From Sedimentisphaerales bacterium (lineage in GTDB: Bacteria > Planctomycetota > Phycisphaerae > Sedimentisphaerales > Anaerobacaceae), in assembly GCA_016936075.1 (NCBI GenBank), contig JAFGPS010000158.1, forward strand, positions 1 through 64,000: a DNA stretch of 64,000 bases, written 5' to 3'. Below are positions 14,678 to 49,279 of this stretch, one piece after another. A model generated the notes under the pieces. It was given only the letters and a program-made list of their open reading frames with translations. It did not search any database and was not told where the DNA came from. Within the stretch, counting starts at the first letter, position 1. Every line of letters starts with the position of its first letter. Both the position numbers and the translations under genes were made by a program.

Positions 14678-14707
14678 TTTCCAAAATATATTTAATAAAA
14701 ATACATC

Positions 14708-16534
14708 TTAATTTTGAGTATCATTCTTAATAGGAGTCAGTTCTTTTCCTTTAAGTGCAGGATGATCAGCAGGTATTCGTACCGCGCGGAAAATCTGGTT
14801 GGCCATATTGAAACCGCCCATTCCACCGCCGCGAGCACCGCCACGTGCACCACCTGCTCTTGCGCCACCAAAAGCACCTGCTCCTGCACCCTGGCCCAAT
14901 TGGCCTCTCATACCGGCCATACCTGCACCTCTTTGTCCCTGAGGAGCGGCTGAATTTGCATCAGCGGGAGCGGCTCCCATTCCTCTCATACCACCACCGA
15001 AAGCTCCTGCGCCACCCATCATACCAGCGCCGCCACGAGCACCCTGACCGCCGCCAAAGCCCCCTCCCATCATTCCGCCGCGGGCACCGCCAGCGCCGCC
15101 TAAGCCGCTTGTAGAATAATCAAATTCCCAAACAATTTCCTTATCAGACGTTACTTCAAAGAAATGACCACTGGCACCTTCACATATAAGGGTATTGCCA
15201 TTAGGCAATCGCTGTGCGCCGGCAATATTCTGAGAATAAAAGTTCGTTTTTTTATTTGGATCCGTATATTGCCAAACAGGTATTACATCAGCAAAGACTT
15301 TTCCATTCATCTTAAATTTACCATTTTCGTCTATAGGAAGAGTAAATTCTTCGACAGAAGAATAGTTGCCGTCAAGTCGATTCGGACCATTATTGAAAAT
15401 TAGCAGGTGACCTTCACCCGGTAAACCTTTTTCTATCCAGTGAATGTTATGCGGGCTGAAGAATTTTTTATCTTCAATCGTACCTTGTTTATAAGCAGCG
15501 GGATTTCCATATCTGTAAATCAGGTCGCCGCCTTTACCATGTTTGCCACCAGCATGACCGGCCGCTTCTTCTGTAGTTGTGCTATGATCGATAACCCAGA
15601 TTTCACTTATAGTATAACTGCTAACGATAATCAAATCGAGTTCTTCATTATAATCGATAGCATTGAAATGGGTCCAGTCTGTTACAGGTATTGGACCTCC
15701 CCCTCCCATCATACCACCACCCATACCGCCTGCACCGCCGCGGCGATTACCTTGTCCGGCACCTGGCGCAGTATCATCCCAGCTATCTGTATAATTAAGA
15801 TTGATTAATTCGGGATGTTCAGAAACTTTGCCATAATTGGGTTTGTTTGGATCAAAATCCTGAATTATATGGTCCCATGCATACCATTTCCAAACAACTT
15901 CAGCAGTATTAGGTCCAGTAGGTTTAAGTTCTACAATACAATCGGGATTCTGTTCTCCAGACTGAAATGCGGGATTACGTCCTGCTTCGATTGACTCCAG
16001 AGCAGATTTCGCATCCCAGCAAATTAGTAAAATATTATCGTTGGGCATTCTTTCAATATCATGATGCGGTACTTCTGTTTCAGTTGCATATATATACTCC
16101 CAGACGACATTTCCATCCCAGTCAATTTCCTGTATTTTTCCGCCTACTCCAATTCCGCCCGGCTGGCGTTTTTCATCACTAAATTCCTGCGTTCCGGGTG
16201 CACCGCCTCGTTGACCACCTCGGCCGCCGCGTCCGCCCATCATGCCTCCCATCATTCCGCCGCCCATCATTCCGCCGCCTGCGGTTCTGGATGCTGATCT
16301 GAACAAATGACCATTATCGAGGAAATATGTACTAAATCCCGCAGAATTTTCCATATCCCACTCATGAACGATTTTACCATCCATATTTATAAGATATGTA
16401 GTAGTGCCAAATAATTGTTGAAAGAGAGTGTATCCTTCAAACACTTTATCGTTTGTTTGTGATAGAGCGCTTCCAAAAATTATAAAATGAAGAATTGCGA
16501 ATGCTGATATGACGACAAATAAACCTTTTTTCAT
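14708..16534 (-). CDS. Arylsulfotransferase-like exported beta-propeller protein, paralogue 2
   Basis: A 608-residue paralogue of the next gene downstream, with the same blade motifs (GTTTYLINMDGKIVHEW, KIQEIDWDGNVVWEY, HHDIERMPNDNIL, GAQRLPNGNTLICEG) and signal peptide. The two align along their length, but the Gly/Met-rich inserts differ in length and content: here about 86-112, 258-280 and a long one at about 483-575. The inserts fall at matching places, between conserved blades, so they expanded independently at the same loops. GAGGAGC precedes the ATG. Likely first gene of a two-gene operon. Confidence 0.75.
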   Translation of the reverse strand: MKKGLFVVISAFAILHFIIFGSALSQTNDKVFEGYTLFQQLFGTTTYLINMDGKIVHEWDMENSAGFSTYFLDNGHLFRSASRTAGGGMMGGGMMGGMMGGRGGRGGQRGGAPGTQEFSDEKRQPGGIGVGGKIQEIDWDGNVVWEYIYATETEVPHHDIERMPNDNILLICWDAKSALESIEAGRNPAFQSGEQNPDCIVELKPTGPNTAEVVWKWYAWDHIIQDFDPNKPNYGKVSEHPELINLNYTDSWDDTAPGAGQGNRRGGAGGMGGGMMGGGGPIPVTDWTHFNAIDYNEELDLIIVSSYTISEIWVIDHSTTTEEAAGHAGGKHGKGGDLIYRYGNPAAYKQGTIEDKKFFSPHNIHWIEKGLPGEGHLLIFNNGPNRLDGNYSSVEEFTLPIDENGKFKMNGKVFADVIPVWQYTDPNKKTNFYSQNIAGAQRLPNGNTLICEGASGHFFEVTSDKEIVWEFDYSTSGLGGAGGARGGMMGGGFGGGQGARGGAGMMGGAGAFGGGMRGMGAAPADANSAAPQGQRGAGMAGMRGQLGQGAGAGAFGGARAGGARGGARGGGMGGFNMANQIFRAVRIPADHPALKGKELTPIKNDTQN

Positions 16535-32216: not shown

Positions 32217-32879
32217 ATGCACAAAATAGTGCACATATCAAAAGGCAAATATGCTCTCAGTAAGCGAGGGCAAAGGTTTATCTTTGTTTTATGTCTGCTT
32301 TTTATATTAATTCTGGCATTTCTCGACAAAAGCTATTTTAATTATTCATTTCAGTCGTGGCATGAAAACAAAACGCAGAGTGCCAGTTCAGATATCGAGA
32401 AATATCATGCAAACACTTTTACTGTAACAAATGTCGTAGATGGTGACACCCTCGATATAAATTGCCCGGACAATCAAAACATATATACAAGAATAAGACT
32501 GCTTGGAATTGATACACCTGAAATGAACACTGAATCAGGGGAAATGTACTTCGCCAGAGAAGCATCTGTTTTTGCTCAGAAATCGGCACTTGGAAAACAA
32601 GTTACTATCTATCTCGATGAAATAAGCGATACGAGGGACAAATACGACAGGCTTTTAGCTTATGTCCTTCTGCCTGACAGTGTATTTCTCAATGAGACTC
32701 TGCTCAGTGAAGGATATGCTTACGCCTATACACGATACAAGCACAGCTTCTATAATAAATATAATCAACTTGAATCACGAGCGAGAAGTAATAAAAAGGG
32801 ACTTTGGCTCAACGTTAAACCTGAACAATTTCCACAATGGTTTCAGGATAGCAAAAAAAACAACAAAATATCAAGATGA
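32217..32879 (+). CDS. Membrane-anchored thermonuclease-family protein
   Basis: A 220-residue protein with one N-terminal membrane helix (FIFVLCLLFILILAFL, about 22-38) and a staphylococcal-nuclease domain: VVDGDTLDINC, RIRLLGIDTPEMN, then DKYDRLLAYVLLPD and GYAYAYTRY. These provide the calcium ligands and the R/E catalytic pattern. An extracytoplasmic nuclease that may digest DNA for nutrients is inferred. Start taken at the ATG; a GTG one codon earlier is possible. It runs nine bases into the end of the convergent fliD. Confidence 0.85.
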   Translation: MHKIVHISKGKYALSKRGQRFIFVLCLLFILILAFLDKSYFNYSFQSWHENKTQSASSDIEKYHANTFTVTNVVDGDTLDINCPDNQNIYTRIRLLGIDTPEMNTESGEMYFAREASVFAQKSALGKQVTIYLDEISDTRDKYDRLLAYVLLPDSVFLNETLLSEGYAYAYTRYKHSFYNKYNQLESRARSNKKGLWLNVKPEQFPQWFQDSKKNNKISR

Positions 32880-35231
32880 AAAACCAAGTGCAGCCATCTG
32901 GTTCTGAAGCAAGGTTAAAGTTTTTTCAAGACGTGCAAAACGAGCTTTTAGATGTTCTTCTTTCTTTTCAAGTCGATATTCTTCAAGTTCAATTTTGTCT
33001 TCCAGTAATTCGATCTGGTCTTTGACATTTTCCCTGTCGATTTGAATTGAGCCTGATGTATTTTTTAATATCCTGTCAAGCGAATCTTCCATAGCTCCGG
33101 CAAAGCCCTGCTTTACTCTTACATTTGCATTGAAAGTTCCATCCTGACTTAAATCAACGCTAAGCTGCAAGCTATTCTCGGGATTAATCGGGTCTCCGTT
33201 ATCGTCGAAAGTACTCACACCTGTAATAATATTACCTGAAAAAGTAGCGTTACGATACGTTGATTCACCTGATAATTTGATACGCGCACTTGTAATCGCC
33301 CCGCCGCTCACTGTAACTTGCACATCATAATTACCTGCGGTCGTGTATTTACTGCTCGCGCCGTAGTATTCGATTGTATTACTATTGCTGCTTCCGTTTT
33401 TATTTGCTCCTATTAAAGCAAGAACAGACATATAATCTTCAGCAATAGCTTCATCGAAAACATTCATATCAAGAGATAATACACCATCTTTATCCACCTC
33501 GAAGCCGATTTGTGCTGGTATAAGAAAGCTGTCAATATCCTCGATGAATCCACTTGTCTGTGCAATCAGAGGTGTTCTTATTTGTGACTTTATGGATGAA
33601 ACAGTATAATCAGCCATCAAAATACCGGCTTCCTTGGTACTCGTATCATAGGCCGTATTTTCCTTGATAAAAGTAACCGCTTGATTATAAGCTTCAACCA
33701 TTGACTGTACTTTTGTTTTTACTGATTCGATGTCCCTGGTAAGAGTTATTTCCTCGCCGCTTTCGTTAGTCGTATCATGCAGGTGCAGTGTGACTCCGTG
33801 AATGACATCGTCAATAGTATTTGAACTTCTGCTTATGTAAGCTGGAACACCTTTCGTCGTCTCAGCAACTGTTACCGGTGAACTCGCGGGACCAAGATTG
33901 GCTCCATTAACAGAAATCATGCTTACGTCACCGAGTATGTTATTAAAAGTAAATGTCACATCTCCATCATCTAAGCCATTAGCAGATCCATCTACAGTTA
34001 TATCTCCTGTATTAACTGTAGATAAAGCTTCAAGTGCGGCCTGAATTTCTGCCGGAGATGCATTATATGCAATTTCAGTCGTTGTTTGACCTTCGTAGGT
34101 AATTGTATAAGTACCAGAACCTGGAGATGGTGAGCGGCTTATTGTCTGAACTTCAGAAACAGCAGAATCAGTTGGAAAGCCATCGACTTTAATCAATGAA
34201 TCCTTTGCTACTTGTGTTTGTGTAAAATCAGAAAAGTCGAAATTAGCAAGACTTGAAGTCATACTTCCACCTACGTCTGTAATTGCCATTGAAGGAAGCG
34301 ATAATGTCGCGGCAGAACCATTAGCGTTATAAGAAATATTTATTGACAGGTCGCTGTCACCACATGCTTTATCAGTTAAAATTATTTTGCCGTTTTCAAA
34401 AGTCGCTCTGGCAATACCATCGAACGCATCGTTAATTTCATCAATAATATGACTTAACTTCGTATTACTTGTAACAGAAATATTTACCTGTGCAATCGCA
34501 TTGCCATTATGGTCAGTTCCGGTTATCTCAATTACCTCACCACCTTCGAGAGAATTTTCACCGAACTGGTCAAGGTCAATAATTCTCGTGCTCAATGTCG
34601 CATTATCATCACCTTCTGTAAACTCACTATCTGCTTCGAGAATTTGTGTGTTGCTTGAATTGACCGAAATTCTATAATCTGTTCCAGCATCATTTCCATT
34701 GAGTACCAAATGATATGCTTTATTGTAATAGAGCATACTCGCGGTTATACCGGGATTATTCGCATCGTTATTTATCAAACCTACAAGCTCTTCAAGTGTT
34801 GTTGTTTCAGTGGTTGTTATCGAAGTTTCCTTATTATTATATGAATAGATAAAAGTACCTTCGCCGACATAATCTTCAGCATATTCCAGTCCAGCTTTTT
34901 GAACCCATCGCTCTGATGTCGCTAACTGGTTTACAACAACATTATGATTACCTTCAAATGAATTATACGATGCTTCAGCGGTTACAACATCCGAATCGCT
35001 CGATGACGCAGAAAAAGCTTTCAATTCATCAGCATCGGAAAGATCACGAATTGAACTCCTGAGATTACTCAACTTTGTTTCAAGTGTATTGAGTGCCTCT
35101 TTTCTATCATCCCATGTTTCTTTTCGTGCTGTATATAAATCCATAGTACGTTGCTCAACCGCCATTAATTGAGCAATCAACTGTTCTGTATCTATACCCG
35201 TCGATAATCCTGATAACTGGGTTGTTGACAT
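32871..35231 (-). CDS. fliD: Flagellar filament cap protein FliD with an inserted repeat domain
   Basis: A 786-residue filament cap, longer than usual. The N-terminus LSGLSTGIDTEQLIAQLMAVE and helical C-terminus (about 730-786) identify FliD. Between the conserved VDGFPTDS (about 349-356) and ISRSSNTIDDVIHGVTLHL (about 466-484), which are adjacent in ordinary FliD, lies a block of about 110 residues (PGSGTYTITYEGQTT, IAYNASPAEIQAALEAL, then VTFTFNNILGDV). This matches a repeat type seen in large surface and phage-associated proteins. A sigma-28 promoter precedes the gene. It is the last gene of the flagellar locus. Confidence 0.95.
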   Translation of the reverse strand: MSTTQLSGLSTGIDTEQLIAQLMAVEQRTMDLYTARKETWDDRKEALNTLETKLSNLRSSIRDLSDADELKAFSASSSDSDVVTAEASYNSFEGNHNVVVNQLATSERWVQKAGLEYAEDYVGEGTFIYSYNNKETSITTTETTTLEELVGLINNDANNPGITASMLYYNKAYHLVLNGNDAGTDYRISVNSSNTQILEADSEFTEGDDNATLSTRIIDLDQFGENSLEGGEVIEITGTDHNGNAIAQVNISVTSNTKLSHIIDEINDAFDGIARATFENGKIILTDKACGDSDLSINISYNANGSAATLSLPSMAITDVGGSMTSSLANFDFSDFTQTQVAKDSLIKVDGFPTDSAVSEVQTISRSPSPGSGTYTITYEGQTTTEIAYNASPAEIQAALEALSTVNTGDITVDGSANGLDDGDVTFTFNNILGDVSMISVNGANLGPASSPVTVAETTKGVPAYISRSSNTIDDVIHGVTLHLHDTTNESGEEITLTRDIESVKTKVQSMVEAYNQAVTFIKENTAYDTSTKEAGILMADYTVSSIKSQIRTPLIAQTSGFIEDIDSFLIPAQIGFEVDKDGVLSLDMNVFDEAIAEDYMSVLALIGANKNGSSNSNTIEYYGASSKYTTAGNYDVQVTVSGGAITSARIKLSGESTYRNATFSGNIITGVSTFDDNGDPINPENSLQLSVDLSQDGTFNANVRVKQGFAGAMEDSLDRILKNTSGSIQIDRENVKDQIELLEDKIELEEYRLEKKEEHLKARFARLEKTLTLLQNQMAALGFSS

Positions 35232-35339: not shown

Positions 35340-36287
35340 TTACATTATTTCAACCAACTCTATGTCATAAATTAAATCCTTTCCTGCAAGAGGATGATTT
35401 GCGTCCAATGTAATCCGTGATTCAGTCACTTGTGAGACTTTTACATTTATAACACTCCCATCCTCCTGATGATCACAAAGCATTTGACCTGATACAGGTG
35501 TCAGATGTTTCGGAAATTGACTTCTTTCAATCACTTGTGTCATTTCATTTCGATATGGACCGTATGCATTGGCAGTATTAACATAAATATTTTTAATCTC
35601 CCTTTCGACCATACCAATGAGAGCATTCTCGAGATAAGGTAATATTTCACTATTACCAATGGTAATTTGTTCAGGTTCTTTATTATAGGTTGACTCAAAA
35701 ATACTACCATCATTAAACTTCCCGGTATAATGAATACGAACTCTATCGCCAATCTTTACGCTATTAACTGAAGCAATTTCAAGTAAATACGTATTGTCAT
35801 ATTCTGAAACTTTTCCCCATCTTTCGAGTTTTTGCCGGGACCAGGAAGAAATATGTCTTTCATTTTGATTATCATATATGGCATCCTGATGTAAAACATT
35901 TATTGGTGTTGCAATCATTGCGAATTTGGATTTTTTCTTAATCGTATCCAGCAGAATTATTCCATCGCTTTCTGTCAAATGCTCTAACATGTCACTACAT
36001 ATCATCATATCATAATTATCCAGCGTAGGTAATATTTGAACTGCATCGCCGATAAATATATGATCATAAATTTCTCTTTGCAACTGCTTTATATATTTTT
36101 CATATATTTCGATTCCATCAATTTTTGTTTGCCAATTGAAATATCTTCCGAGTCTGACATCAGTGTATTCTCTGGCCAAAAAACCGAATTTCCCGAATCC
36201 GATACCAATATCCAGAACAGACATGGGACTCTTTTCAAATATTCTATTACATATAGCTGTTACAGTAGTTGGTCTTGAACACGGCAT
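35340..36287 (-). CDS. Methyltransferase fused to a SlyD-like FKBP prolyl isomerase
   Basis: One uninterrupted 315-residue frame joins two domains. Residues about 20-165 form a class I SAM-dependent methyltransferase: SAM-binding VLDIGIGFGKFG (24-35), acidic strand end IDGIEIY, DYDMMICSDMLEHL-type motif and IATPINVLHQ. Residues about 175-315 form a SlyD-type FKBP: IHYTGKFNDGSIFEST, ALIGMVEREIKNIYV, ANAYGPY and the insert-in-flap end LDANHPLAGKDLIYDIELVEI. The combination is not one I know. In an operon with glycosyltransferases; perhaps methylates a sugar or the flagellin while the FKBP domain holds the unfolded substrate (inference). Confidence 0.88.
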   Translation of the reverse strand: MPCSRPTTVTAICNRIFEKSPMSVLDIGIGFGKFGFLAREYTDVRLGRYFNWQTKIDGIEIYEKYIKQLQREIYDHIFIGDAVQILPTLDNYDMMICSDMLEHLTESDGIILLDTIKKKSKFAMIATPINVLHQDAIYDNQNERHISSWSRQKLERWGKVSEYDNTYLLEIASVNSVKIGDRVRIHYTGKFNDGSIFESTYNKEPEQITIGNSEILPYLENALIGMVEREIKNIYVNTANAYGPYRNEMTQVIERSQFPKHLTPVSGQMLCDHQEDGSVINVKVSQVTESRITLDANHPLAGKDLIYDIELVEIM

Positions 36288-36305: not shown

Positions 36306-39300
36306 CTATGAAATAGTCTGCATTTTATCTTCATCAATTCTAACTTTGTCTAAAACAAATTGTTGTACGATTTTTTGGATGAAGGGATTTTCGGGTTCCA
36401 TCTCCAGGCATTTTTCGTACTCCTGCTTTGCTTTTTCAAAAGCCATATAAGCATATATATGTGAATCTTTTGAATTGAGATAGGTTTTACCTATTCCGAT
36501 GAAAGTTTCCGCAGTGAGGCATTTAGCATATAAACGCTCTTTTCCGGGCATTACCTGATTCCAATCTGTATCCGGAAACAGTTCGTTATATTCAAATGTC
36601 TTTGTGTACCTTTCAAGAATTTCGAAAAGGTTTTCTGCTTTTTTTCGAGAATAGCTTTTTGAAAGACTTTGACTGTTCATACGCCGCAAATACAAAGGTT
36701 CCTTAAGATGAAGTATAATCAGACCCTGTCGAACAAATCTACGCATCATATCATAATCTTCACCGATTAATAATCCTTCATCAAAAAATCCAATTTTATC
36801 GAAAACGCTCCTTTTTATACAAGTCCTGAACGGAACTACCGGAAAACCATTTTTGAAAAGGTCTCTGATTAGTAGATTTCTATTTGAATATTCCGGCCTT
36901 TTTATAACTCGTATCGGCTTTGCGTTCTCATCAATAAGATAATCATCACAATACACAAGGTCAGTGTCAGGATACTGTTCAAATTCCTGAAGATGCCTCG
37001 ATATGAAATCGGGCATCATCATATCATCGGTATCGAGCTTAATTACATATTCACCAAAAGACTCTTTTATACCTCGATTATGAGTTGCAGCAAGACCTCG
37101 ATTTTCCTGTTTAAAATATCTTATTTTTTCATCCTTATAACTCAATATTATTTCTTCGGTATTATCAGTAGAACCGTCGTTAATAATTATAAGTTCGAAG
37201 TTCCTGTAATTTTGAATCAGGACACTTTCAATAGCAGAGGCAATATCCTTAGCGGCATTATAGGCCGGCATAATCACAGAAATCAGAGTATTATTTCTGC
37301 TCTTATATTGCTGTATTATTGATATGTAAGGATTTCCGTATCTTTTTCCGACTAAATATCTCTCATATAAACTATGAATTTTCGCACCATGCTCTATACC
37401 TGCTTCGTTATGATAGTATAGACCGAGAAATTCAGGAATTCTTTTTAACTCGTGTTTTTCAGATATTCTCAACCAGAAATCCCAGTCACCGGCACAGGTC
37501 AACGATTCATCAAAATAACCAAGTTCATCATGGAGGCTTCTTCGCCACATCGGCTGAGAACCTGTACAGCACCCGAAAAGCAACCTTTCTCTGCTGTATT
37601 CGGACCTGCGAAGCTCTTCTGTTCCATGATTATCAGCGAAGGTATCATTAGGTGTATCAGTTCGTATCTGGTCACCATATACCAGGCCAACATGAGGATT
37701 CGACTCCAAAGCATTAACCATAAATTCAAATGCGTCGTCGCGATGCCGGTCATCTGTATTTGCATTAGTTAAAAAAGTTCCATGTGCTGCCTTTACTGCA
37801 CGATTCCAGGCGGAATAAATCCCCTCACGCTTTTCGGTTTTAATATAAACTATATTATTATACTTCTGTTGGAATTCGTTGACTATCACTTCTTCGTTTT
37901 CCTGCGAACCGCTGTTAACAACTATGATTTCCATCTTGTCAGCTATAGTCTGCTGTTCAAGATCATCGAGGCAGCCTCTTAGATATTTTTCTGAATTATA
38001 AGTAGACACAATAGCGGAAACGAGATATTTATCCTGTCCATTTTCGTTATCTGCCATTAAACGTCTGTCGGCCTGATATCGTAAATTAGCAGATTCCGTC
38101 AAACAAACCTTGTCGTTTTCAGTCAGGCTCTTACCTATCGCCTCATGCACCATACCAACAGAAATATTCTTTATACATAATATATCATTTTGGCGGCACT
38201 TCCAGTTGCAGTTATAGCACTGCATCTGATAACTAACCAGGGTCGTTAACGGACTGTACGGCAGGAATCTGCCATAATGGCCTCCGCCTAATAAAACAAC
38301 ATGCGGACAATTTACCGCAGCGGCAATATGCGCCGGCGCAGAATCAACCGTAACACATATACGTGATCTCTGCAATAGTGCAGCTAACTGTCTAAGGGTA
38401 ATTTTTCCACATAGATTATATATATTTGGATGGCCCGCTGCGTTTTTAAGCCTATCTGCACTTTCCTTATCTTTTTCAGCCCCGCAAATTATAATCGGAA
38501 AATTATTGTAACATGAAATTAATTCCGTCCAACTGCTAATTGACCATTCTTTTTGCCTGAACTGAGCAAAGGGACATATGATCATTGCTTTTTCTATATC
38601 TACACCAAGCTTGCTTATCAATTCCTTTATAAAATCTTCGTCCTCTTTTTCAATCCATATTTTGGGCATGAGCGGTTCATTAATTACAGCCCCAAGACCA
38701 CGCATAAATTCTTCATTACGCTTAGTTTCCAGCATCACAATATTTTCGGCCGGTATTATTTTCGTATAATAACTATTGTTTTTTAGTCTCTGCTCCATAG
38801 AGATATTAGTATCATCCCCAATCGATGCTATTAATTCGCGGGCACTACTGTTTAACGTCAGAAACTCCCCTACCTTGTCCCTTGAATAAACCGGATTTAT
38901 CGCTATATCGAACTTATATTCCTGTAACCGGCGTATAATTTGTCCGGCGTACTCGCTATCATTAATAATTTTTTCTCGCGATTCGAAAGTTATTACCTCA
39001 TCGATATAGGGACATGGCCGAGCAAGTTCAGCAATTCTCTTCTGTACAAGAATATGAATGCGCGCATCAGGATATAATTTCTTAAAATATTTAAGAGAAG
39101 AACTGAAAATAATATAATCACCAATAGCATCCGGTCGAACGATAAGTATTTTCTGCTTTGGTTGGATTTGGCGTGAATTGTCTTTGGATAAACCAGTTTG
39201 ACAAACGGGATTCATTCGCCAGCCTGTATAATCGTCCTTGAATAAAAGCTGCAATACAGGTACTCGAATATTACCGTGAAGGTATCTAAGTATCGCAGCA

Positions 39301-39941
39301 CGATGCTGTCCATCTCGAATGTACGGTTCGTCGCCAAAGACAACAATCATATTATTGTTGTAAGGATAGCCATGCTGTTCGATTGATTTTTTCAGGCTGT
39401 GAAGATTTTGTATATCATGGTTCGGTTCGCCAAACTGTTCTATATAACATTTATAAGATTCAGTATTGCCCTGCAGACATTTGTACGGCATTGATTCGAT
39501 TATCGCTTTAGGTTCCCATCGACATGGCTGCTTCGATAGCTTACTGATGCAAAGCAAATTATCCAAAGGCATTTCCAGTACTTTAGCTTCCTTGACATAC
39601 TGAGCCATCTGCCCCATAGTCTTGATAAAAACAGGATCTAATTGAACCTGGAGTTTTCCCTGATCCGTTTCTCCTGCACGAATGTTAGGAGCTTGAGGAG
39701 GTTGCGGCTTTTGTATAGTCTCATTTTGCTCCAACAAAATAGCATTCAGATTGCTTCTCGCCTGCGAGCAGACTTCCGCCAGTTTTATAAAGTCCCTGAT
39801 AGAGAAATCAAGCCGCAAATTACGCCAATGAATATGAATTGCCTCACCAATGTTGTCCTCGATTTGCAGCCGCGTTGAACAAAGTTTGGGCTGCGCTTCA
39901 ATCTGTTCTGTTTTCAAAACTATAACTGCTATGTTTGCCAT
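36306..39941 (-). CDS. Four-domain glycosyltransferase: ParB-like, GT9, GT2, GT2
   Basis: A 1211-residue protein. Residues about 1-75: small domain related to the 68-residue protein encoded downstream of the nucleotidyltransferase. About 105-235: ParB/sulfiredoxin-like fold with RDGQHRAAIL (209-218). About 264-600: GT9 domain (ILIVRPDAIGDYIIF, TVDSAPAHIAAAVN) ending in a cysteine group (CYNCNWKC). About 639-870 and 886-1100: two GT2 domains with VSTYNSE/NTDD and MPAYNAA/KLDTDDM. Residues 1140-1195 look like one TPR-type hairpin. Fits stepwise assembly of a flagellar glycan in the cytosol, which is inference. Its ATG lies 13 bases inside the end of the upstream CgeB-like gene. Confidence 0.88.
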   Translation of the reverse strand: MANIAVIVLKTEQIEAQPKLCSTRLQIEDNIGEAIHIHWRNLRLDFSIRDFIKLAEVCSQARSNLNAILLEQNETIQKPQPPQAPNIRAGETDQGKLQVQLDPVFIKTMGQMAQYVKEAKVLEMPLDNLLCISKLSKQPCRWEPKAIIESMPYKCLQGNTESYKCYIEQFGEPNHDIQNLHSLKKSIEQHGYPYNNNMIVVFGDEPYIRDGQHRAAILRYLHGNIRVPVLQLLFKDDYTGWRMNPVCQTGLSKDNSRQIQPKQKILIVRPDAIGDYIIFSSSLKYFKKLYPDARIHILVQKRIAELARPCPYIDEVITFESREKIINDSEYAGQIIRRLQEYKFDIAINPVYSRDKVGEFLTLNSSARELIASIGDDTNISMEQRLKNNSYYTKIIPAENIVMLETKRNEEFMRGLGAVINEPLMPKIWIEKEDEDFIKELISKLGVDIEKAMIICPFAQFRQKEWSISSWTELISCYNNFPIIICGAEKDKESADRLKNAAGHPNIYNLCGKITLRQLAALLQRSRICVTVDSAPAHIAAAVNCPHVVLLGGGHYGRFLPYSPLTTLVSYQMQCYNCNWKCRQNDILCIKNISVGMVHEAIGKSLTENDKVCLTESANLRYQADRRLMADNENGQDKYLVSAIVSTYNSEKYLRGCLDDLEQQTIADKMEIIVVNSGSQENEEVIVNEFQQKYNNIVYIKTEKREGIYSAWNRAVKAAHGTFLTNANTDDRHRDDAFEFMVNALESNPHVGLVYGDQIRTDTPNDTFADNHGTEELRRSEYSRERLLFGCCTGSQPMWRRSLHDELGYFDESLTCAGDWDFWLRISEKHELKRIPEFLGLYYHNEAGIEHGAKIHSLYERYLVGKRYGNPYISIIQQYKSRNNTLISVIMPAYNAAKDIASAIESVLIQNYRNFELIIINDGSTDNTEEIILSYKDEKIRYFKQENRGLAATHNRGIKESFGEYVIKLDTDDMMMPDFISRHLQEFEQYPDTDLVYCDDYLIDENAKPIRVIKRPEYSNRNLLIRDLFKNGFPVVPFRTCIKRSVFDKIGFFDEGLLIGEDYDMMRRFVRQGLIILHLKEPLYLRRMNSQSLSKSYSRKKAENLFEILERYTKTFEYNELFPDTDWNQVMPGKERLYAKCLTAETFIGIGKTYLNSKDSHIYAYMAFEKAKQEYEKCLEMEPENPFIQKIVQQFVLDKVRIDEDKMQTIS

Positions 39942-40879
39942 GATGTTGTTTCCGCCAATTGGGATTTGCTTTCGTTGAATCTTTTAATAAAATAATTTGT
40001 GCCAAGCACTTTATTAATCATCTCAATATATCGATGAATTAACATATGACTGTTGAGTACACTAATAGACGTGTCCGGCGTATTATCAGCAGATAAAGCA
40101 TTCTGAAGAACCTGGCCGAAGTCTGAGAAATTACGTTGAAAAAAATAAGTTGAAGAATAGTCAACGTCTTTAATGTTGTCATGGTCAGGAACTTTGTTAG
40201 TAAGCAGCGATCGGTTCAAACCCCATACTTCAAAGTTCCTTATATTAAAATCGTCAAACAAACTGATATTCAGGACTATTCGTGATTTCAGGATTAAATC
40301 CATATTAGCCATACCGGACTGGGCTGGGCCAAGATGATACCGGATACCTATTTTCTGGAAGTATTCCTTTAATTTCTGTGCCAGATTGAGGAAGTTGACA
40401 TTGTTGTTAAGGTCGAACGGAAATACGACATCGTATTTAACGTTCTTTTCAAATAACGACCTCAATCTTAGTTCTTTTAAATGGTCGATATCGAATCCCA
40501 GAAAACAATCCGGAACCCATTCTGTTCTAACATCATTGAATTTTCCCAGATACGGCGAATGAGCAATAAAAAAGGTATCAAAGTATTTCTGGAAACGCCT
40601 TTCTTTTTCATAGCAGTGATGAGAATCAAAGGTCCAAAGTGCCTTGTGAGTATGAATTCGCTCAAGGCATAACCGCTCAAGTTTGTCTGCGTTTGTCCCG
40701 AAAAGTGCAACGATAAGCATATCTGCTGTATTAGCTGCTTTTATAAGTGACTCAATTTCCTCATCGGTAATAAACTCAAGCTTTGGAAACGGAACAATCT
40801 CAAGCGTCTCGTTATTCTCTATGTATTTTATGTCTCTATGCGGAAAATAATTCCCGCTGATAATAACTTTAGGCATCAA
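39929..40879 (-). CDS. CgeB-like glycosyltransferase
   Basis: A 316-residue protein of GT-B type. The C-terminal half contains the pattern of CgeB/Glyco_trans_1_2 proteins: SRIVLNISLFDDFNIRNFEVWGLNRSLLTNKVPD, split here as a donor-site stretch rich in acidic and Asn residues, and an N-terminal half with repeated Rossmann-like strands. CgeB-like enzymes are common in flagellin glycosylation loci. Overlaps the next gene by 13 bases and follows the nucleotidyltransferase by six, so it is translated in series. Donor sugar unknown. Confidence 0.7.
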   Translation of the reverse strand: MMPKVIISGNYFPHRDIKYIENNETLEIVPFPKLEFITDEEIESLIKAANTADMLIVALFGTNADKLERLCLERIHTHKALWTFDSHHCYEKERRFQKYFDTFFIAHSPYLGKFNDVRTEWVPDCFLGFDIDHLKELRLRSLFEKNVKYDVVFPFDLNNNVNFLNLAQKLKEYFQKIGIRYHLGPAQSGMANMDLILKSRIVLNISLFDDFNIRNFEVWGLNRSLLTNKVPDHDNIKDVDYSSTYFFQRNFSDFGQVLQNALSADNTPDTSISVLNSHMLIHRYIEMINKVLGTNYFIKRFNESKSQLAETTSWQT

Positions 40880-42144: not shown

Positions 42145-42765
42145 CTATACATTTTGTGCCTGTGCAAGATTGTGTTCTATTTCTTCAAGTAAATTAGCCG
42201 CATCCTTATTCTTAGGATCAAGAACAAGAATATCTCTAAGAACATTTTGTGACGCTTCAATTTTTCCGTCTTTCATATAAAGAGCAGCCAATGGATACAT
42301 AACAGAAGTATCACCAGGATGCATATCGAGGTACATTTCAAGGTAATGTGTCACCTGCTCGAATGAACCCATCTGACATGAAGTTTGAAATAATCCAAGA
42401 ATACCGATTAAATTCTCACTGTCCAATTCAAGCGATTTCAGATACATATCAAAAGCATAACGATAATCATTATTCTGCTGCGCAACCATACCCAAACCAG
42501 AATACGCCTTTGCACAGGTATTATCGAGCCTGCATGCAACTTTAAAAGCCGCATGGGCATCATCCATCTGATTATTCTGCAAAGCCACGACTCCAAGACC
42601 AACATAAGGAGCGGCTTCGTCCGGTTCTAAAACGGCTGCGTTTTCATAATATTTCCTGGCTTTTTCATAATCACCCATAGAACAATAACAATCGCCCAAT
42701 TCCTGCAATATTTCATAATGTTGGGTAGAATCATGCTGAGAGGCATTTTTTCGAGCTATGTCCAT
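42145..42765 (-). CDS. TPR-repeat protein
   Basis: A 206-residue protein built almost wholly of tetratricopeptide repeats, about five copies (GDYEKARKYYENAAVLEPDE, QMDDAHAAFKVACRLDNT, DYRYAFDMYLKSLELDSE and so on). No signal peptide. It overlaps the GT2 gene upstream by ten bases. Together with the TPR segments of the two neighbouring glycosyltransferases it may form a scaffold for the glycosylation complex (inference). Confidence 0.85.
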   Translation of the reverse strand: MDIARKNASQHDSTQHYEILQELGDCYCSMGDYEKARKYYENAAVLEPDEAAPYVGLGVVALQNNQMDDAHAAFKVACRLDNTCAKAYSGLGMVAQQNNDYRYAFDMYLKSLELDSENLIGILGLFQTSCQMGSFEQVTHYLEMYLDMHPGDTSVMYPLAALYMKDGKIEASQNVLRDILVLDPKNKDAANLLEEIEHNLAQAQNV

Positions 42766-44321
42766 AAATACTCCATTCCATCTATCGTTCTTTCAGCTAT
42801 CGTTAGTAATTCGACAGCTTCGTCATATTTCTTTTCTTCGCGTTTGACTTTTGCTTCAAGCAGTAAAGTACTAACTGTTGGTCTTTGCTGATTAATTTCA
42901 TGGCACAAACAAGCCGCTAATTGTTTATTGCCGGCTTTGTATAACGCATTTGCACTAAGGGATTTCATCCACAATTCGTTGTTATGATTTTCAGCTATAT
43001 ATTCATAAATTTGAGCGGCGTGCATCCAGTTACCATCATTTTGAGCATTAAATGCCTGCTGAATCATATTATCGAATTGTAATGGAAGTTCCTCAAATTC
43101 AGGTTTTTTAAGTTTTATACCGGAAGCATTCAGAGAATCAAGCAGTGACAAGTGCGGGAACATTTTTCTCGCTTTTGAGATATCTTCTTTTTTCAAAACA
43201 ACTCCCCACATACTATCTGTCGAATCTTCCAATAGATATCCGATTCTGTCACCTCTATTATTAATTAAAGCGTAAAGCGGATTCTCAATCCATCTGTCCC
43301 TTATAGGATATTCTCTGGGTATAATTGCGATATATTCGCCCTCAGATTGCATTAGTAATAAATCTAATTGTTCTTCCTGAGACCTTTCTGGACTTACAGA
43401 TACAAAAACAAGGTTCTTCATATCTGTACTAATTCCGTTGAAATCTTTCTGTGAAACCGGCAAATATAATTTGTAAGGATAAAAAGTATGCTGACGAATT
43501 GCGCCTATTGTTTGTCCAGTCTGACGGTCCAACCTGTTTGTCATAAATATAATAGACAAATCTTTTATTTTCGGCCATGGCTTTTCAGGCCGGGAAGCAC
43601 GTATTTCTACAACATTTCTAACATAATTCTGTTTATTTTTTCTTTGCTGAACAGAAATTCTGTCACAGTCACCCATAGGATGATAATATTCGCCTGTAAT
43701 TTTATAAACATGATAGAAATCCGTAAAGAAAGCAAGCCTGCGTGTCATATCCCAGTCAATCAAAACATTCAGATTTTCGTTATAGGGACCAGTCTTTTCA
43801 ATCAGGTCACGGCGATGCATCAAGCTTACATGCAGAACATGATTGAAATGCAGCATAAAAAAACGATCGAAGTCCCTGCTCACTTCAACAGTCTTGCTGA
43901 GAACCTGCCTGCTTCCATCCTGCGATACCTTGCAATAAGCCTTGTACAAATCACTATACGCAACCTGGCAATCTGTTCGATTTTCCAGCGTATCAACGAG
44001 AGTTTCAATATGCTCGGGGTAAAACATGTCATCATCATCAAGATACGCTACATATTTACCTTGTGCATATTTCAGTGCTTCATTGAGTGAAAATGCTTTG
44101 CCATAGTTTTCTTTCCTGTTAATAAAAAGAATCCGCGAATCACAAAAGGATTCGACAATATCAGAGACATCCTGTCCACCATCGTTTACTACGATAATCT
44201 GCATATTCTCATAACTCTGATTCAATATGCTTTTCAGAGCTTTTTGAAAATATTGAGGACGATTAAAAGTCGGTATAATAACATTTACAAGCGGTTCGAT
44301 TTTTTTATAATCTCTTTTCAT
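42756..44321 (-). CDS. GT2 glycosyltransferase with C-terminal TPR region
   Basis: Five hundred twenty-one residues. N-terminal GT2 domain: VIIPTFNRPQYFQKAL (about 14-29), VVNDGGQD, and the DXD-type YLDDDDMFYPEHIE (about 93-106). Residues about 410-515 are helical with A-x-x-Y/L patterns of TPR repeats. A middle domain of about 150 residues is not recognised. The ATG directly follows the stop of the GT4 gene (TAAATG). Likely acts in the cytosol on flagellin or a lipid carrier. Confidence 0.85.
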   Translation of the reverse strand: MKRDYKKIEPLVNVIIPTFNRPQYFQKALKSILNQSYENMQIIVVNDGGQDVSDIVESFCDSRILFINRKENYGKAFSLNEALKYAQGKYVAYLDDDDMFYPEHIETLVDTLENRTDCQVAYSDLYKAYCKVSQDGSRQVLSKTVEVSRDFDRFFMLHFNHVLHVSLMHRRDLIEKTGPYNENLNVLIDWDMTRRLAFFTDFYHVYKITGEYYHPMGDCDRISVQQRKNKQNYVRNVVEIRASRPEKPWPKIKDLSIIFMTNRLDRQTGQTIGAIRQHTFYPYKLYLPVSQKDFNGISTDMKNLVFVSVSPERSQEEQLDLLLMQSEGEYIAIIPREYPIRDRWIENPLYALINNRGDRIGYLLEDSTDSMWGVVLKKEDISKARKMFPHLSLLDSLNASGIKLKKPEFEELPLQFDNMIQQAFNAQNDGNWMHAAQIYEYIAENHNNELWMKSLSANALYKAGNKQLAACLCHEINQQRPTVSTLLLEAKVKREEKKYDEAVELLTIAERTIDGMEYLWT

Positions 44322-45860
44322 TTACAATACATTTAATAAACTCATATCAGGTTTATTTGAAAACTTATCTTTTACTCCAGTCGAGGAATAATTATATGGC
44401 ATTTTCCCTGATTTCTCAGACTCGATTTTTGCTTCAAGCTGAATAAAAATATTATTAATTTCAGCTAATTGTTTTTTAAGAGGATATTTTTCCTCAACAT
44501 ACCTGCGATATTGAACAGGCTCATATGAATCAGAAAGAATATGCTGACAAAATTCCTCAGCTATATTGAACAAATATTCCTGTTTGAATATCTCGCTTGC
44601 TCCAGGGAAATTATGAATCACCGGCTTAAGCCCGCAAGCCATCGCTTCGAGTAATCCCATTCCCTGGCTTTCAATAATGCTTGTAGATGCGACATAATGT
44701 TTATCCTTGAGCCATACATGCACATCTCTTTGCCAGTTTTCAAAAAATACCACATCCTGAAGCCCAAGAGCATTAACCATGTGTTTTAAATATTGTTCGA
44801 GACTTCCATCCTGAAACTGCCCTGCGAAAAACAATTTGTACTCCGGGTCAATATAATGCAGCTTCTGCATACATTGCAAAATCATCGAAGGATTTTTAAC
44901 TAATCTCAGGTTTGATAAAAACACAATATTTTTACCGCGGTGTTTATCGATAAAAGAAAAACGCTCCAGATTCACTCCGCTCGGGATAGTAAGAAAGTTA
45001 GTTTTATTTTCAATATCAGGAATCCATTGAATAAGTGCGCTTTTAACAAAGCTGTTTCCTACATTAATCAGAACGTCAATATTTGACCAGTTTACTTCTA
45101 CCGGCCATTGCTCATATGCTTCATATCGATGCAGCCTGATTATATTTTCACAGACCTTAGGTTTTCTGGAACCAATAACCGCAAGGTTTGTACACCACTC
45201 GAACCATGAAATGTCGCTCCATTTCATCAATTCATATAACTGTTCTTCATTATTTCCATCAAAAATTCTGACTTCAAAACGCTCTTTTAAGAATTCACAG
45301 ATTTCATTAAGGAAATTCATTCCATCCCCGCCACAGAAGAACGCTATTTTGGGCCTTTTTGATTTTATTACCTTGAGCATAGGCATTAGAATTTCTTGTT
45401 TCGGGCAAATATAAAGAGACTGTAAGAGCATTTCAATAGCTCCGGCTTTATTATTTTGATTAAGAAATACATTTGCCGTCCTGTTGAGTATATCAACATT
45501 CAAAATTTTCATCTTTTTCATTTCATCAAAAAGATAGGCCGCTTCTCTTGGCCTTCCAGTTGCAAGATATATTTCCGACAGGTTCCACAAAATCTCAGCT
45601 GATTCACCATTCAATTTTCGTGCCCTGAGAAAATAAGGAATTGCTTCTTCCGAACGTCCATGACAATGCAGAATTGCTCCGATATCATTAAGAACTTGCG
45701 AATCTTCACCTTCTGTCTTTATATGCTCCTGCATAAAAGATAGCGCTTGCTCATATCGACCAGCCTGAACAGCTTCCAATCCTTTTTCATAAGAATTCTT
45801 TGTTCCGAATTGATTGTTCGGAATTCTTCCCTCCTGATTCAAGTAACCATCTGGTCCCAT
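44322..45860 (-). CDS. GT4 glycosyltransferase with N-terminal TPR region
   Basis: A 512-residue protein from the ATG at 45860, which follows AGGAG; an upstream frame of 31 residues runs into promoter DNA and is rejected. Residues about 20-150 are TPR repeats (EKGLEAVQAGRYEQALSFM, GRSEEAIPYFLRARKLNGE). The C-terminal part is GT4/GT-B: NIVFLSNLRLVKNPSMIL, KLFFAGQFQDG, STSIIESQGMGLLEAMACGLKP with the E-x7-E donor motif. First gene of the glycosylation island and the one behind the sigma-54 promoter at 45984-45999. Confidence 0.87.
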   Translation of the reverse strand: MGPDGYLNQEGRIPNNQFGTKNSYEKGLEAVQAGRYEQALSFMQEHIKTEGEDSQVLNDIGAILHCHGRSEEAIPYFLRARKLNGESAEILWNLSEIYLATGRPREAAYLFDEMKKMKILNVDILNRTANVFLNQNNKAGAIEMLLQSLYICPKQEILMPMLKVIKSKRPKIAFFCGGDGMNFLNEICEFLKERFEVRIFDGNNEEQLYELMKWSDISWFEWCTNLAVIGSRKPKVCENIIRLHRYEAYEQWPVEVNWSNIDVLINVGNSFVKSALIQWIPDIENKTNFLTIPSGVNLERFSFIDKHRGKNIVFLSNLRLVKNPSMILQCMQKLHYIDPEYKLFFAGQFQDGSLEQYLKHMVNALGLQDVVFFENWQRDVHVWLKDKHYVASTSIIESQGMGLLEAMACGLKPVIHNFPGASEIFKQEYLFNIAEEFCQHILSDSYEPVQYRRYVEEKYPLKKQLAEINNIFIQLEAKIESEKSGKMPYNYSSTGVKDKFSNKPDMSLLNVL

Positions 45861-45983
45861 TTTAACTCCTTTTAATATTTGTTTTTCACATTTTAAAAAG
45901 CCTGTACGTGCAGAGTAAAACATGCTTATTAATAAATAGTGTTCAAAGTACATCCTGCACTATTGTCAAGCTATAATTAATAT

Positions 45984-46123: not shown

Positions 46124-47305
46124 TCAAATAAAGTCTAAAAGAGAAACAGACAATACTTTTCCAGCAATTGACAAAGACATCTGATAGAGAATCTCACGGC
46201 GTGTTAAATCAACTGTTATTTGAGCAATGTCAGCTTCCTGAAGCCTTGTTGATTCATCCTCTGCCGTATATTTCATATCAGTGAGGCTTTCTTTTAAGCC
46301 TTCTAAGAAATTGATTTTCGAGCCTAAAGAAACTTCCTTCTGAACCAGGAGACTATTTATTTCCTCTACTGAGTTTAAAATTGTATCCTGAAAATCCTTG
46401 ATCTGAGATTCAGACAGATTGGCATCGTTTTTAAGCAGATCTCGAACACTTATTAACATTCCAAATAAATCATAAGTTCCCGGTGAACAAACCAAATCCA
46501 CGCCGGTTTCGCTGATTTGAGTAGTATCAACATATAAAACCTGTCCATTGGTTGAATTTATTACTGCAAGATTAGTATCTGTTCCATCACTTGTAAAAGT
46601 TGTAAGACCTCCATCGATGGAAAGATTCCAGTTTCCTTCTGAACCTGTAACTGTAAGCCATGTATCACCTTCTATATTGGATGTTCCTGTACCGGCCTGT
46701 GATCCTGTACTGCCGAAAAATAAACAATCTCCGCGATTGTCAGAATGAAAAACTTCTTCACCAACCAAAAGAGGATTAGTCTGCATTCCATCAGCAACTT
46801 CAACATTCCTGTTTTGTAAACTTCCATGGTATGTTACAGAAGTAATTCTACCATCAGTTCTTTCTACCTGATATGGCGCAGTTTCCGTATTACCTCCACC
46901 AAAAATATATTGACCAAGATTTTTGGTATTGGCTAATGTCACAACCTGCTCTAATATATCATTTATACCCTCAGCAGTTCTTTCTCGTGCATCATCAGTG
47001 TATATACCACTTGAAACCTGAGTAATTTGAGAACGCACGTTACTAAGTGATGAAATTATATTTTGTATTATTCCAGAGGAAAGTTCAAGAGAATCTGTCG
47101 TTTCCGTAATAGTGTTAATATAGTTATCCAGAGACTTTTGCTGAGATCCAAGACCAAGTACCTTAAAAGCGGAAGTCGCATCATCCGAAATCCTGTTTAT
47201 TCGGGAACCGGTAGATGCCTGCTCCTGAAGCTTCCCCATAGCTTCTGCATTAATTAGCAAAGCATTACTGACATTATTATAAACATTACTAAGCGTTCCA
47301 CTCAT
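46124..47305 (-). CDS. flgL: Hook-filament junction protein FlgL
   Basis: A 393-residue flagellin-like junction protein, second adaptor between hook and filament. The N-terminus has the flagellin pattern (MSGTLSNVYNNVSNALLINAEAMGKLQEQASTGSRINRISDDATSAF) split in blocks, and the C-terminus ends in the helical TQADIAQITVDLTRREILYQMSLSIAGKVLSVSLLDF-type segment. The middle is variable as usual. Ten bases after flgK. Exported by the flagellar type III system, no signal peptide. Confidence 0.93.
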   Translation of the reverse strand: MSGTLSNVYNNVSNALLINAEAMGKLQEQASTGSRINRISDDATSAFKVLGLGSQQKSLDNYINTITETTDSLELSSGIIQNIISSLSNVRSQITQVSSGIYTDDARERTAEGINDILEQVVTLANTKNLGQYIFGGGNTETAPYQVERTDGRITSVTYHGSLQNRNVEVADGMQTNPLLVGEEVFHSDNRGDCLFFGSTGSQAGTGTSNIEGDTWLTVTGSEGNWNLSIDGGLTTFTSDGTDTNLAVINSTNGQVLYVDTTQISETGVDLVCSPGTYDLFGMLISVRDLLKNDANLSESQIKDFQDTILNSVEEINSLLVQKEVSLGSKINFLEGLKESLTDMKYTAEDESTRLQEADIAQITVDLTRREILYQMSLSIAGKVLSVSLLDFI

Positions 47306-47314
47306 TTTTCACCG

Positions 47315-49279
47315 TTATATTATATCCATTATTATTGATACTGAATTTTGGAGAGTTCCAAGATATTTTGCCATTCCCTGGAACATCTGTTCGAAAACAA
47401 GTAATTTAGCAGCTTCGTCATTAAGGTTGACACCGCTTATTTCTCCCTGCTGGTTTGTAAAGTTCTGTATTGAAGCCTGCATATTGTCCTGAAGAATATT
47501 TCTCGTCGAAATATCTATTCCTATATCCGTTACAAGCTTGCGATAGAAATCCCCGAATGTCATAGAATTCAGGTTTTCCATTTTTATATCTTTCAGTTCT
47601 GCAAATCTCAAAACATTTTCATTGTCAGTCATCTCAGGACCAATCGAAGTCGCAATAAGTTTTGGATCATCTGAAATATTAGAGTTGACTGAAATATCAG
47701 ATGCGCTTCTGCCCGAAAAGAAAGTGTTTATTCCCAAGGCTGCCAGAAGCCCGGTTGTATCACTTTGCGATAAAGCATCTACTTCAAATGTATTACCATC
47801 CGCCAAATCTCCCAAACTAAAAGAAATTTTAATTCCATTGCAAATTTCAAGTTCATCACCAGCGGAATAACCAGAACCAACGTTTAAGATTTTAACTATA
47901 TCACCATTACCATCAGCGACAGAGATTTCCAGAGTGCCATTACCTACTGAACCTGTACCGGAAACATTAAATGTGAATGTTTGATTCTCAGTTCCAGAAT
48001 ATATCCCCGACATAGAAATAGAAGGAGCAGATGAAGTACCTGAAAAATCGCTTGCCGTTGGTTCGGAAAGTACAGCAGGCAGAAAATCAAATTCATATCC
48101 GCTATCAGCCTGTATTCTAAGTGTAGAATTAGAAACAGATGCATTTAATCCTGTAATTGCTGAAATATCAGCGGCTATATCAGTTAAGGAATCCGCTGAT
48201 ACATCAATAGGAATTGTTGTACGTGTCACCTGACCTGTAGCGGTATCTGTAACTCGAATAGAAAAACTACCATCAGAAAGAACAGGCTGAAAATCAGCTA
48301 AATCTTCACTTACCATTATCGAACCTGTTATATCAGTAAAAGAACCTTCAGAGCCAACACCTTGGACATGATTTTGATTTATTTGCTGGATAATTTCTGA
48401 TGCGAGATTATTAAGATCATTATGAATATTCGAGATGATTCTATTTTTAAGGGAACACAAACCTCCAAGTTGACCTCCCTGTATATCTGTGGAGTAATTC
48501 GATTCACCAGCAATTGTTATGCCTAACATCCCATTTTCATCTAAACCTGCCTCTAATTCTAATGATGAAATTCCTGCACATACTGGTATTCCTTCGATAC
48601 TCAGATCAACTACACCATGGTCACGCGACAAAGTCTCAACATTAACCAGTTCCGAAAGCTGTGCAATACACTGATCTCTCTGGTCACGGAGATTATTCGC
48701 ATTTCCGCCGCTTATAACCAAATTTTGAATCTTACCATTCAACTCTGTTATAGATTTAGTGAGAGAGTTTATTTCCTTAACTACATTATCCGTCTCCTGC
48801 TTCAATTGTGTCTCAAGTTTTGTAAGATAATCATCGAGAAGCTGAAATCTGTTTGCCATACTTTCAGCGGAAGAAACAGCCTGTTCCTGGTATATAATTT
48901 CCGATGGATGTGCTGAAAGATCTTTTAAGGCATTGAAGAAATCATCGATTGCGGCATTAAGGCCACTTTCAGAGGAAAGCTCCCCAAATACTGTTTCAAC
49001 AGATTTTAGAGTATTAAGTTCCTGTGAAATAAATGTAAATGAAGACTGCTGCCTATATATTTCCTTTTCAAGAAGAGTATCTATTGCTCTTGTTACCTCA
49101 CCAATATCTACACCACCACCTAATACAGTATCCCCGATCTGTGTAGTAAAAGCAGGAGTTAAATTTAGCCTCTGAAGATGATATCCTTCTGTTGCGGCGT
49201 TGGCTATATTATTGCCGATTACTTCAAAAGCCTGTTGTGCCGCTGAAAGGCCGCTAATTGCTACATCATAACTATCCAC
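47315..49279 (-). CDS. flgK: Hook-filament junction protein FlgK
   Basis: Six hundred fifty-four residues. N-terminal YDVAISGLSAAQQAFEVIGNNIANAATEGYHLQRL and a C-terminal helix (about 600-654) are the conserved D0 segments. Residues about 410-520 form an extra beta-rich domain (SGIYSGTENQTFTFNV, GNGTLEISVADGNGD, LNVGSGYSAGDELEI) that is larger than the FlgK core of enterobacteria. It is exported by the flagellar apparatus. It follows flgN after 64 bases. Confidence 0.93.
   Translation of the reverse strand: MDSYDVAISGLSAAQQAFEVIGNNIANAATEGYHLQRLNLTPAFTTQIGDTVLGGGVDIGEVTRAIDTLLEKEIYRQQSSFTFISQELNTLKSVETVFGELSSESGLNAAIDDFFNALKDLSAHPSEIIYQEQAVSSAESMANRFQLLDDYLTKLETQLKQETDNVVKEINSLTKSITELNGKIQNLVISGGNANNLRDQRDQCIAQLSELVNVETLSRDHGVVDLSIEGIPVCAGISSLELEAGLDENGMLGITIAGESNYSTDIQGGQLGGLCSLKNRIISNIHNDLNNLASEIIQQINQNHVQGVGSEGSFTDITGSIMVSEDLADFQPVLSDGSFSIRVTDTATGQVTRTTIPIDVSADSLTDIAADISAITGLNASVSNSTLRIQADSGYEFDFLPAVLSEPTASDFSGTSSAPSISMSGIYSGTENQTFTFNVSGTGSVGNGTLEISVADGNGDIVKILNVGSGYSAGDELEICNGIKISFSLGDLADGNTFEVDALSQSDTTGLLAALGINTFFSGRSASDISVNSNISDDPKLIATSIGPEMTDNENVLRFAELKDIKMENLNSMTFGDFYRKLVTDIGIDISTRNILQDNMQASIQNFTNQQGEISGVNLNDEAAKLLVFEQMFQGMAKYLGTLQNSVSIIMDII

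Follow-up and report, generated by a model that had tools for sequence, protein, structure and literature searches.

A methyltransferase-SlyD fusion in a flagellar glycosylation operon of two planctomycete genera

The window analyzed here is a stretch of 64,000 nucleotides (contig JAFGPS010000158.1, positions 1 to 64,000) from a member of the Sedimentisphaerales. The genes considered below lie on its minus strand, in a run that opens with flgL and flgK (46124 to 49279), the start of the flagellar hook-filament genes, and reaches fliD (32871 to 35231). Between flgL and fliD is a gene for a protein with the TPR-glycosyltransferase domain pair of FlmG (44322 to 45953), which is likely to be a flagellin glycosyltransferase. 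The run also holds a GT2 glycosyltransferase with a C-terminal repeat region (42756 to 44321), a TPR protein (42145 to 42765), and a weakly supported glycosyltransferase-like gene (39929 to 40879), all assigned by Pfam, as well as a 1,211-aa glycosyltransferase with a GT9 and two GT2 domains (36306 to 39941). This giant gene lies 18 bases upstream of the gene that concerns us (35340 to 36287), which encodes a 315-aa protein combining a methyltransferase with a SlyD-type FKBP domain; the two genes are probably in the same operon. fliD lies 108 bases downstream, with no terminator-like site between the two. The flagellar setting described in an earlier sequence-only reading, with glycosyltransferases and fliD adjoining the fusion gene, is therefore correct.

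The glycosyltransferase preceding fliD ranges from 1,211 to over 2,500 aa in relatives (window 36306 to 39941; loci L123-L142). In about half of those compared, the last ~330 residues are conserved and the rest are variable, as if N-terminal domains had been exchanged. A search of the window genome for the Maf-type modifier (PF01973) gave no match, which says little, as the model's controls matched only archaea. Elsewhere in the window, two adjacent proteins (12854 to 16534) contain low-complexity runs of the GGM/GRG type.

The fusion gene starts with ATG and continues without an internal stop. Residues 1 to 171 (35775 to 36287) constitute a class I SAM methyltransferase of a family distinguished by MPxSxP and IDGIEI motifs, and residues 175 to 315 (35343 to 35765) constitute a SlyD-type FKBP domain with an IF insert at about residues 243 to 297. 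Each half is recovered by its own Pfam profile, namely, Methyltransf_23 at residues 10 to 160 (E 1.2e-7; 32.0 bits versus a cutoff of 27) and FKBP_C at residues 177 to 311 (E 6.4e-13; 49.3 bits versus a curated cutoff of 21.1). These matches uphold the single uninterrupted frame with both domains that the sequence-only reading had described; its methyltransferase boundaries (about residues 20 to 165) have to be widened, as the domain extends from residue 1 to about residue 171, where the standalone relatives end, at the fusion junction. A search of PDB sequences matched SlyD, SlpA, and FKBP chains to the second half from E 5e-14, with alignment over the entire SlyD/SlpA length, including the IF chaperone insert in the flap. 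The FKBP match spends 135 residues on 89 profile positions, indicating that an IF-sized insert is present. The domain scores below the NCBIfam equivalog cutoffs for SlyD/SlpA. It shares the FKBP fold and IF insert with SlyD and SlpA (FkpB; PDB 3cgm and 4dt4) but differs from them in its fusion to a methyltransferase and in having no histidine-rich tail.

Structure prediction, with an alignment consisting of the window copy, the orthologue described below, and standalone relatives, yielded two compact domains with a mean pLDDT of 93.5; at a pTM of 0.63, the mutual position of the two halves is not fixed. In Foldseek searches with the AlphaFold model, the SlyD half superposed on Thermus thermophilus SlyD with a TM score of up to 0.80 of the target (matches include 4odo, 3cgn, and 3luo), and the methyltransferase half superposed on class I methyltransferases. 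Among these are Hen1 and also EvdMO1, whose structure contains SAH and D-fucose. The Foldseek matches listed include no methyltransferase-SlyD protein.

A full-length orthologue, 62 to 63% identical to the window copy, is present in G024, a Phycisphaerae metagenome-assembled genome (public contig JAUWBI010000017.1) that belongs to the same family but to another genus. There, too, the gene order is giant glycosyltransferase, fusion, and fliD, followed by export genes. Comparison of the two copies shows saturation of pS (0.81 and 0.99) but pN values of 0.18 for the methyltransferase half and 0.29 for the SlyD half, indicating that both halves have long been kept by selection in one frame. The stretch between codons 124 and 226 of the window copy contains no ATG, GTG, or TTG; hence, its SlyD domain cannot be started at the domain border and is made only in fused form. 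The second full-length copy and the codon pattern rule out an assembly or frame artifact joining two genes. Recent transfer of a cassette between the two genera is not supported, as the identity of the fusion (62%) is about that of fliD (59%) and of the adjacent glycosyltransferase tail (58%). The domains of the two fusions group as sisters in a tree built from 65 SlyD domains (support of 98/87), which fits a single joining event, and the window branch is long (0.70 versus 0.093). Two genera thus encode a selected methyltransferase-SlyD fusion within an operon for flagellar glycosylation.

The fusion is rare. Among about 800 genomes of the phylum, searched as overlapping sets of 89 genomes from the family, 161 from the order, an even phylum sample of 392, and an even class sample of 397, only the window genome and G024 have a full-length copy; the order, phylum, and class sets added no further one. 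Other SlyD matches examined in these sets are standalone, and long SlyD frames in six genomes (G356, G261, G275, G210, G481, and G395) were judged to be high-GC frame extensions or off-frame reads rather than fusions. Two genomes of the same genus (G001 and G002) have fliD without the fusion. The position before fliD was compared in 20 relatives: it is mostly occupied by the giant glycosyltransferase itself and in a few instances by a TPR or small protein. As the giant gene directly adjoins fliD, with no fusion, in most flagellated relatives, the fusion is an accessory component. A scan of a genome collection with the window protein alone gave no match, and one with the window and G024 proteins together retrieved the G024 contig and two standalone methyltransferases. 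A phage origin of the entire gene was considered and set aside: viral contigs carry the halves separately, and none of the matches seen has them joined. Our literature search, mostly outside subscription journals, found no paper on the pair, in agreement with the statement of the sequence-only reading that no protein with it had been characterized. The protein is thus a new combination of known domains.

The first half is a class I SAM-dependent methyltransferase with a Rossmann fold. D26, G28, and G30 of motif I (DxGxG) and the acidic E60 after strand 2 are invariant in 16 relatives. The family has homologues in phages and on viral contigs, where identity reaches 53%, as well as in Zixibacteria, a Paenibacillus glycan cluster, and many Planctomycetota; among viral fold matches, a phage protein named glycosyltransferase ranks second. 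The 62 immediate neighbors of 17 homologues from planctomycetes include 12 with matches to glycosyltransferase group 1/4 models, 5 to GT2, 7 to other methyltransferases, and 4 to the O-antigen exporter Wzt. One homologue forms the N terminus of a 2,040-aa glycosyltransferase adjoining fliP and fliR (G217; L144, 738 to 6860); this giant protein has several glycosyltransferase domains and a second methyltransferase. The open reading frame of another extends into a 745-aa frame whose C-terminal part is, by reading only, glycosyltransferase-like. The methyltransferases of glycan clusters and phages (e.g., Paenibacillus WP_244364731.1 and Tunturiibacter phage XOB77376.1) belong to the same family at about 33 to 53% identity, with the N-terminal MPxSxP and IDGIEI motifs in common, but they are standalone or joined to glycosyltransferases and, in the sets searched, never joined to SlyD.

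A search with a family profile recovered bacterial Hen1 (E 6e-9). D99, E102, H103, and H145 align to the E-x-x-E-H...H site of Hen1, which serves metal-dependent O-methylation; E102, H103, and H145 are invariant in the 16 relatives, and 15 of the 16 have D or E at position 99. The similarity is significant only over positions 92 to 165, and the profile alignment did not show whole-domain similarity. Because E-H after that strand is a common feature of other small-molecule methyltransferases as well, the Hen1-like site is suggestive only. Unlike Hen1, a small-RNA 2'-O-methyltransferase (PDB 3jwg and 3jwi), most members have Asp as the first site residue, and their genomic setting is one of glycans rather than RNA repair. 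Taken together, the membership in a glycan-cluster family and the O-methyltransferase-like site make O-methylation of a sugar likelier than methylation of a protein, and on the basis of families and context, we infer that this half O-methylates a sugar. Of the two targets entertained by the sequence-only reading, flagellin or its glycan, the glycan is therefore favored over the polypeptide. As the family is found mostly outside flagellar loci, the target could also be another surface glycan.

The conservation of the SlyD half is uneven. A comparison restricted to columns with conservation of 70% or more among 57 standalone SlyDs gave 14 departures in 35 columns for the window copy in the FKBP pocket part, which extends to residue 242, against 1 in 19 in the IF/C-terminal part beyond that residue (Fisher p 0.009). 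At the identical columns, the G024 copy has 3 and 0 differences; its isomerase pocket is nearly canonical, and loss of isomerase function is accordingly not general. With the list of pocket residues from a study of T. thermophilus SlyD (PMC5034536), the window copy keeps Y187, Y242, H298, and L305, the first three being Y13, Y63, and H119 of that protein, and has replaced D23 with E198, L27 with E206, G39 with Y218, and F128 with Y307; I208 is a further replacement. Because single pocket changes lowered the activity of T. thermophilus SlyD only partly (PMC5034536), we can only infer that the isomerase activity of the window copy is reduced. The IF domain of T. thermophilus SlyD binds unfolded peptides (PMC5034536). 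The flagellin of the window genome, whose gene adjoins fliS on a different contig, contains a single proline among its 271 aa, which would leave little work for an isomerase, unlike a holder of an unfolded chain. On these grounds, the SlyD half of the window copy has the look of a holder of substrate and not of an isomerase. To this extent, the role in presenting substrates that the sequence-only reading gave to SlyD gains indirect backing from the conserved IF part, the drifting pocket, and the proline-poor flagellin.

How enzymes that modify flagellar subunits find their cytoplasmic targets before export is largely open, and FlmG of Caulobacter crescentus is the worked example. Its N-terminal TPR domain binds flagellin, and its C-terminal domain glycosylates flagellin in the cytoplasm (PMC7591256). 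The fusion resembles FlmG in coupling a binding module, putative in this case, to a modifying enzyme in a flagellar setting, but FlmG pairs TPR with a GT-B glycosyltransferase, whereas the fusion pairs a methyltransferase with SlyD/FKBP in the reverse domain order. The most reasonable comparison is one by analogy, of working principle and not of family. With this precedent, the account that we tentatively prefer, while holding it to be far from secure, is that of a flagellum-dedicated methyltransferase whose SlyD chaperone domain is a substrate-holding module. The N-terminal half would transfer a methyl group from SAM to a sugar hydroxyl, either of a glycan that the flagellar subunit already carries or of a precursor supplied by the neighboring glycosyltransferases. 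The C-terminal half would rely mainly on its IF domain to hold an unfolded or export-competent flagellar protein by the methyltransferase in the cytoplasm, acting for it as the TPR half of FlmG acts for its glycosyltransferase half. Use of the IF domain is suggested by families and context, as is recruitment of a flagellar protein by the chaperone half; that the protein held would be flagellin or the co-encoded FliD, and at what time, is a guess. It is probable that the fusion steers methylation toward flagellar proteins or toward their sugars. If so, a natural chaperone-methyltransferase fusion would be a second and different answer, besides FlmG, to the problem of finding subunits and a case of a folding-helper domain turned into a targeting module.

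Other explanations start from the same observations. The position in a flagellar operon and a chaperone half suited to unfolded polypeptides would equally suit a protein methyltransferase acting directly on flagellin or FliD, at either a side chain or a terminus, while SlyD unfolds or holds this target. FliB, the flagellin lysine methyltransferase, would then be the parallel in effect, as the outcome of methylation in a flagellar operon would be similar. The fusion, however, has no match to the FliB family in Pfam or NCBIfam, and our proposed target is another one; the occurrence of the methyltransferase family in glycan and O-antigen clusters and phages, the resemblance of its site to O-methyltransferases, and the mere 7 lysines in the 271 aa of flagellin make direct protein methylation improbable. 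Methylation of a sugar of the capsule or lipopolysaccharide, synthesized by the large neighboring glycosyltransferases, with the adjacency to fliD incidental, would accord with homologues found mostly in polysaccharide clusters, some with Wzt exporters. Yet the run of glycosyltransferases in the window is enclosed by flgL and fliD, the giant gene adjoins fliD across many members of the family, and the fusion occupies an identical position in two genera, for which reasons we regard this as the least probable of the explanations.

It is also conceivable that the SlyD half has no part in substrate choice and is simply a folding or solubility aid for its own methyltransferase or the only SlyD of the cell. 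In keeping with this, the fusion is the sole FKBP_C match in the window genome (89% complete) and the sole match of the fusion profile in G024. We consider this unlikely, given that the standalone methyltransferase relatives do without SlyD, that many relatives in the genome sets searched have no SlyD at all, so that it is not an indispensable function of the cell, and that the drift of the domain is uneven, with the pocket changed and the IF part kept.

A further frame is relevant to how often such domains have been joined. In a genome of the genus of G024 (G094), the start of a contig (L065, G094:C6, 1 to 615) encodes the last 32 residues of a closely related SlyD domain (81% identical), joined in frame to a different methyltransferase-like domain with a weak, sub-cutoff Pfam match. 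The frame may represent a third join of SlyD with a methyltransferase, the domains being in reverse order; as only about 100 bases of SlyD are present, it may also be an assembly chimera. A broader and distinctly speculative proposal, which we would not expect to hold in full, is that SlyD, having largely given up prolyl isomerization, acts as a dedicated holder delivering flagellar subunits in the unfolded state to a metal-dependent sugar O-methyltransferase ahead of export and that SlyD and methyltransferases were joined more than once, as the G094 frame may show. Farther along the G094 contig are homologues of kdsA, the LeuRS gene, and xerC, all with counterparts in the vicinity of the fusion in the window. 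One planctomycete family (f53; L096, L098, L102, and L104) has SlyD genes in tandem pairs separated by less than 1 kb, and standalone SlyD genes are present on many large phage contigs (viral_contigs loci L158-L237, 80 retained of 274 relatives).
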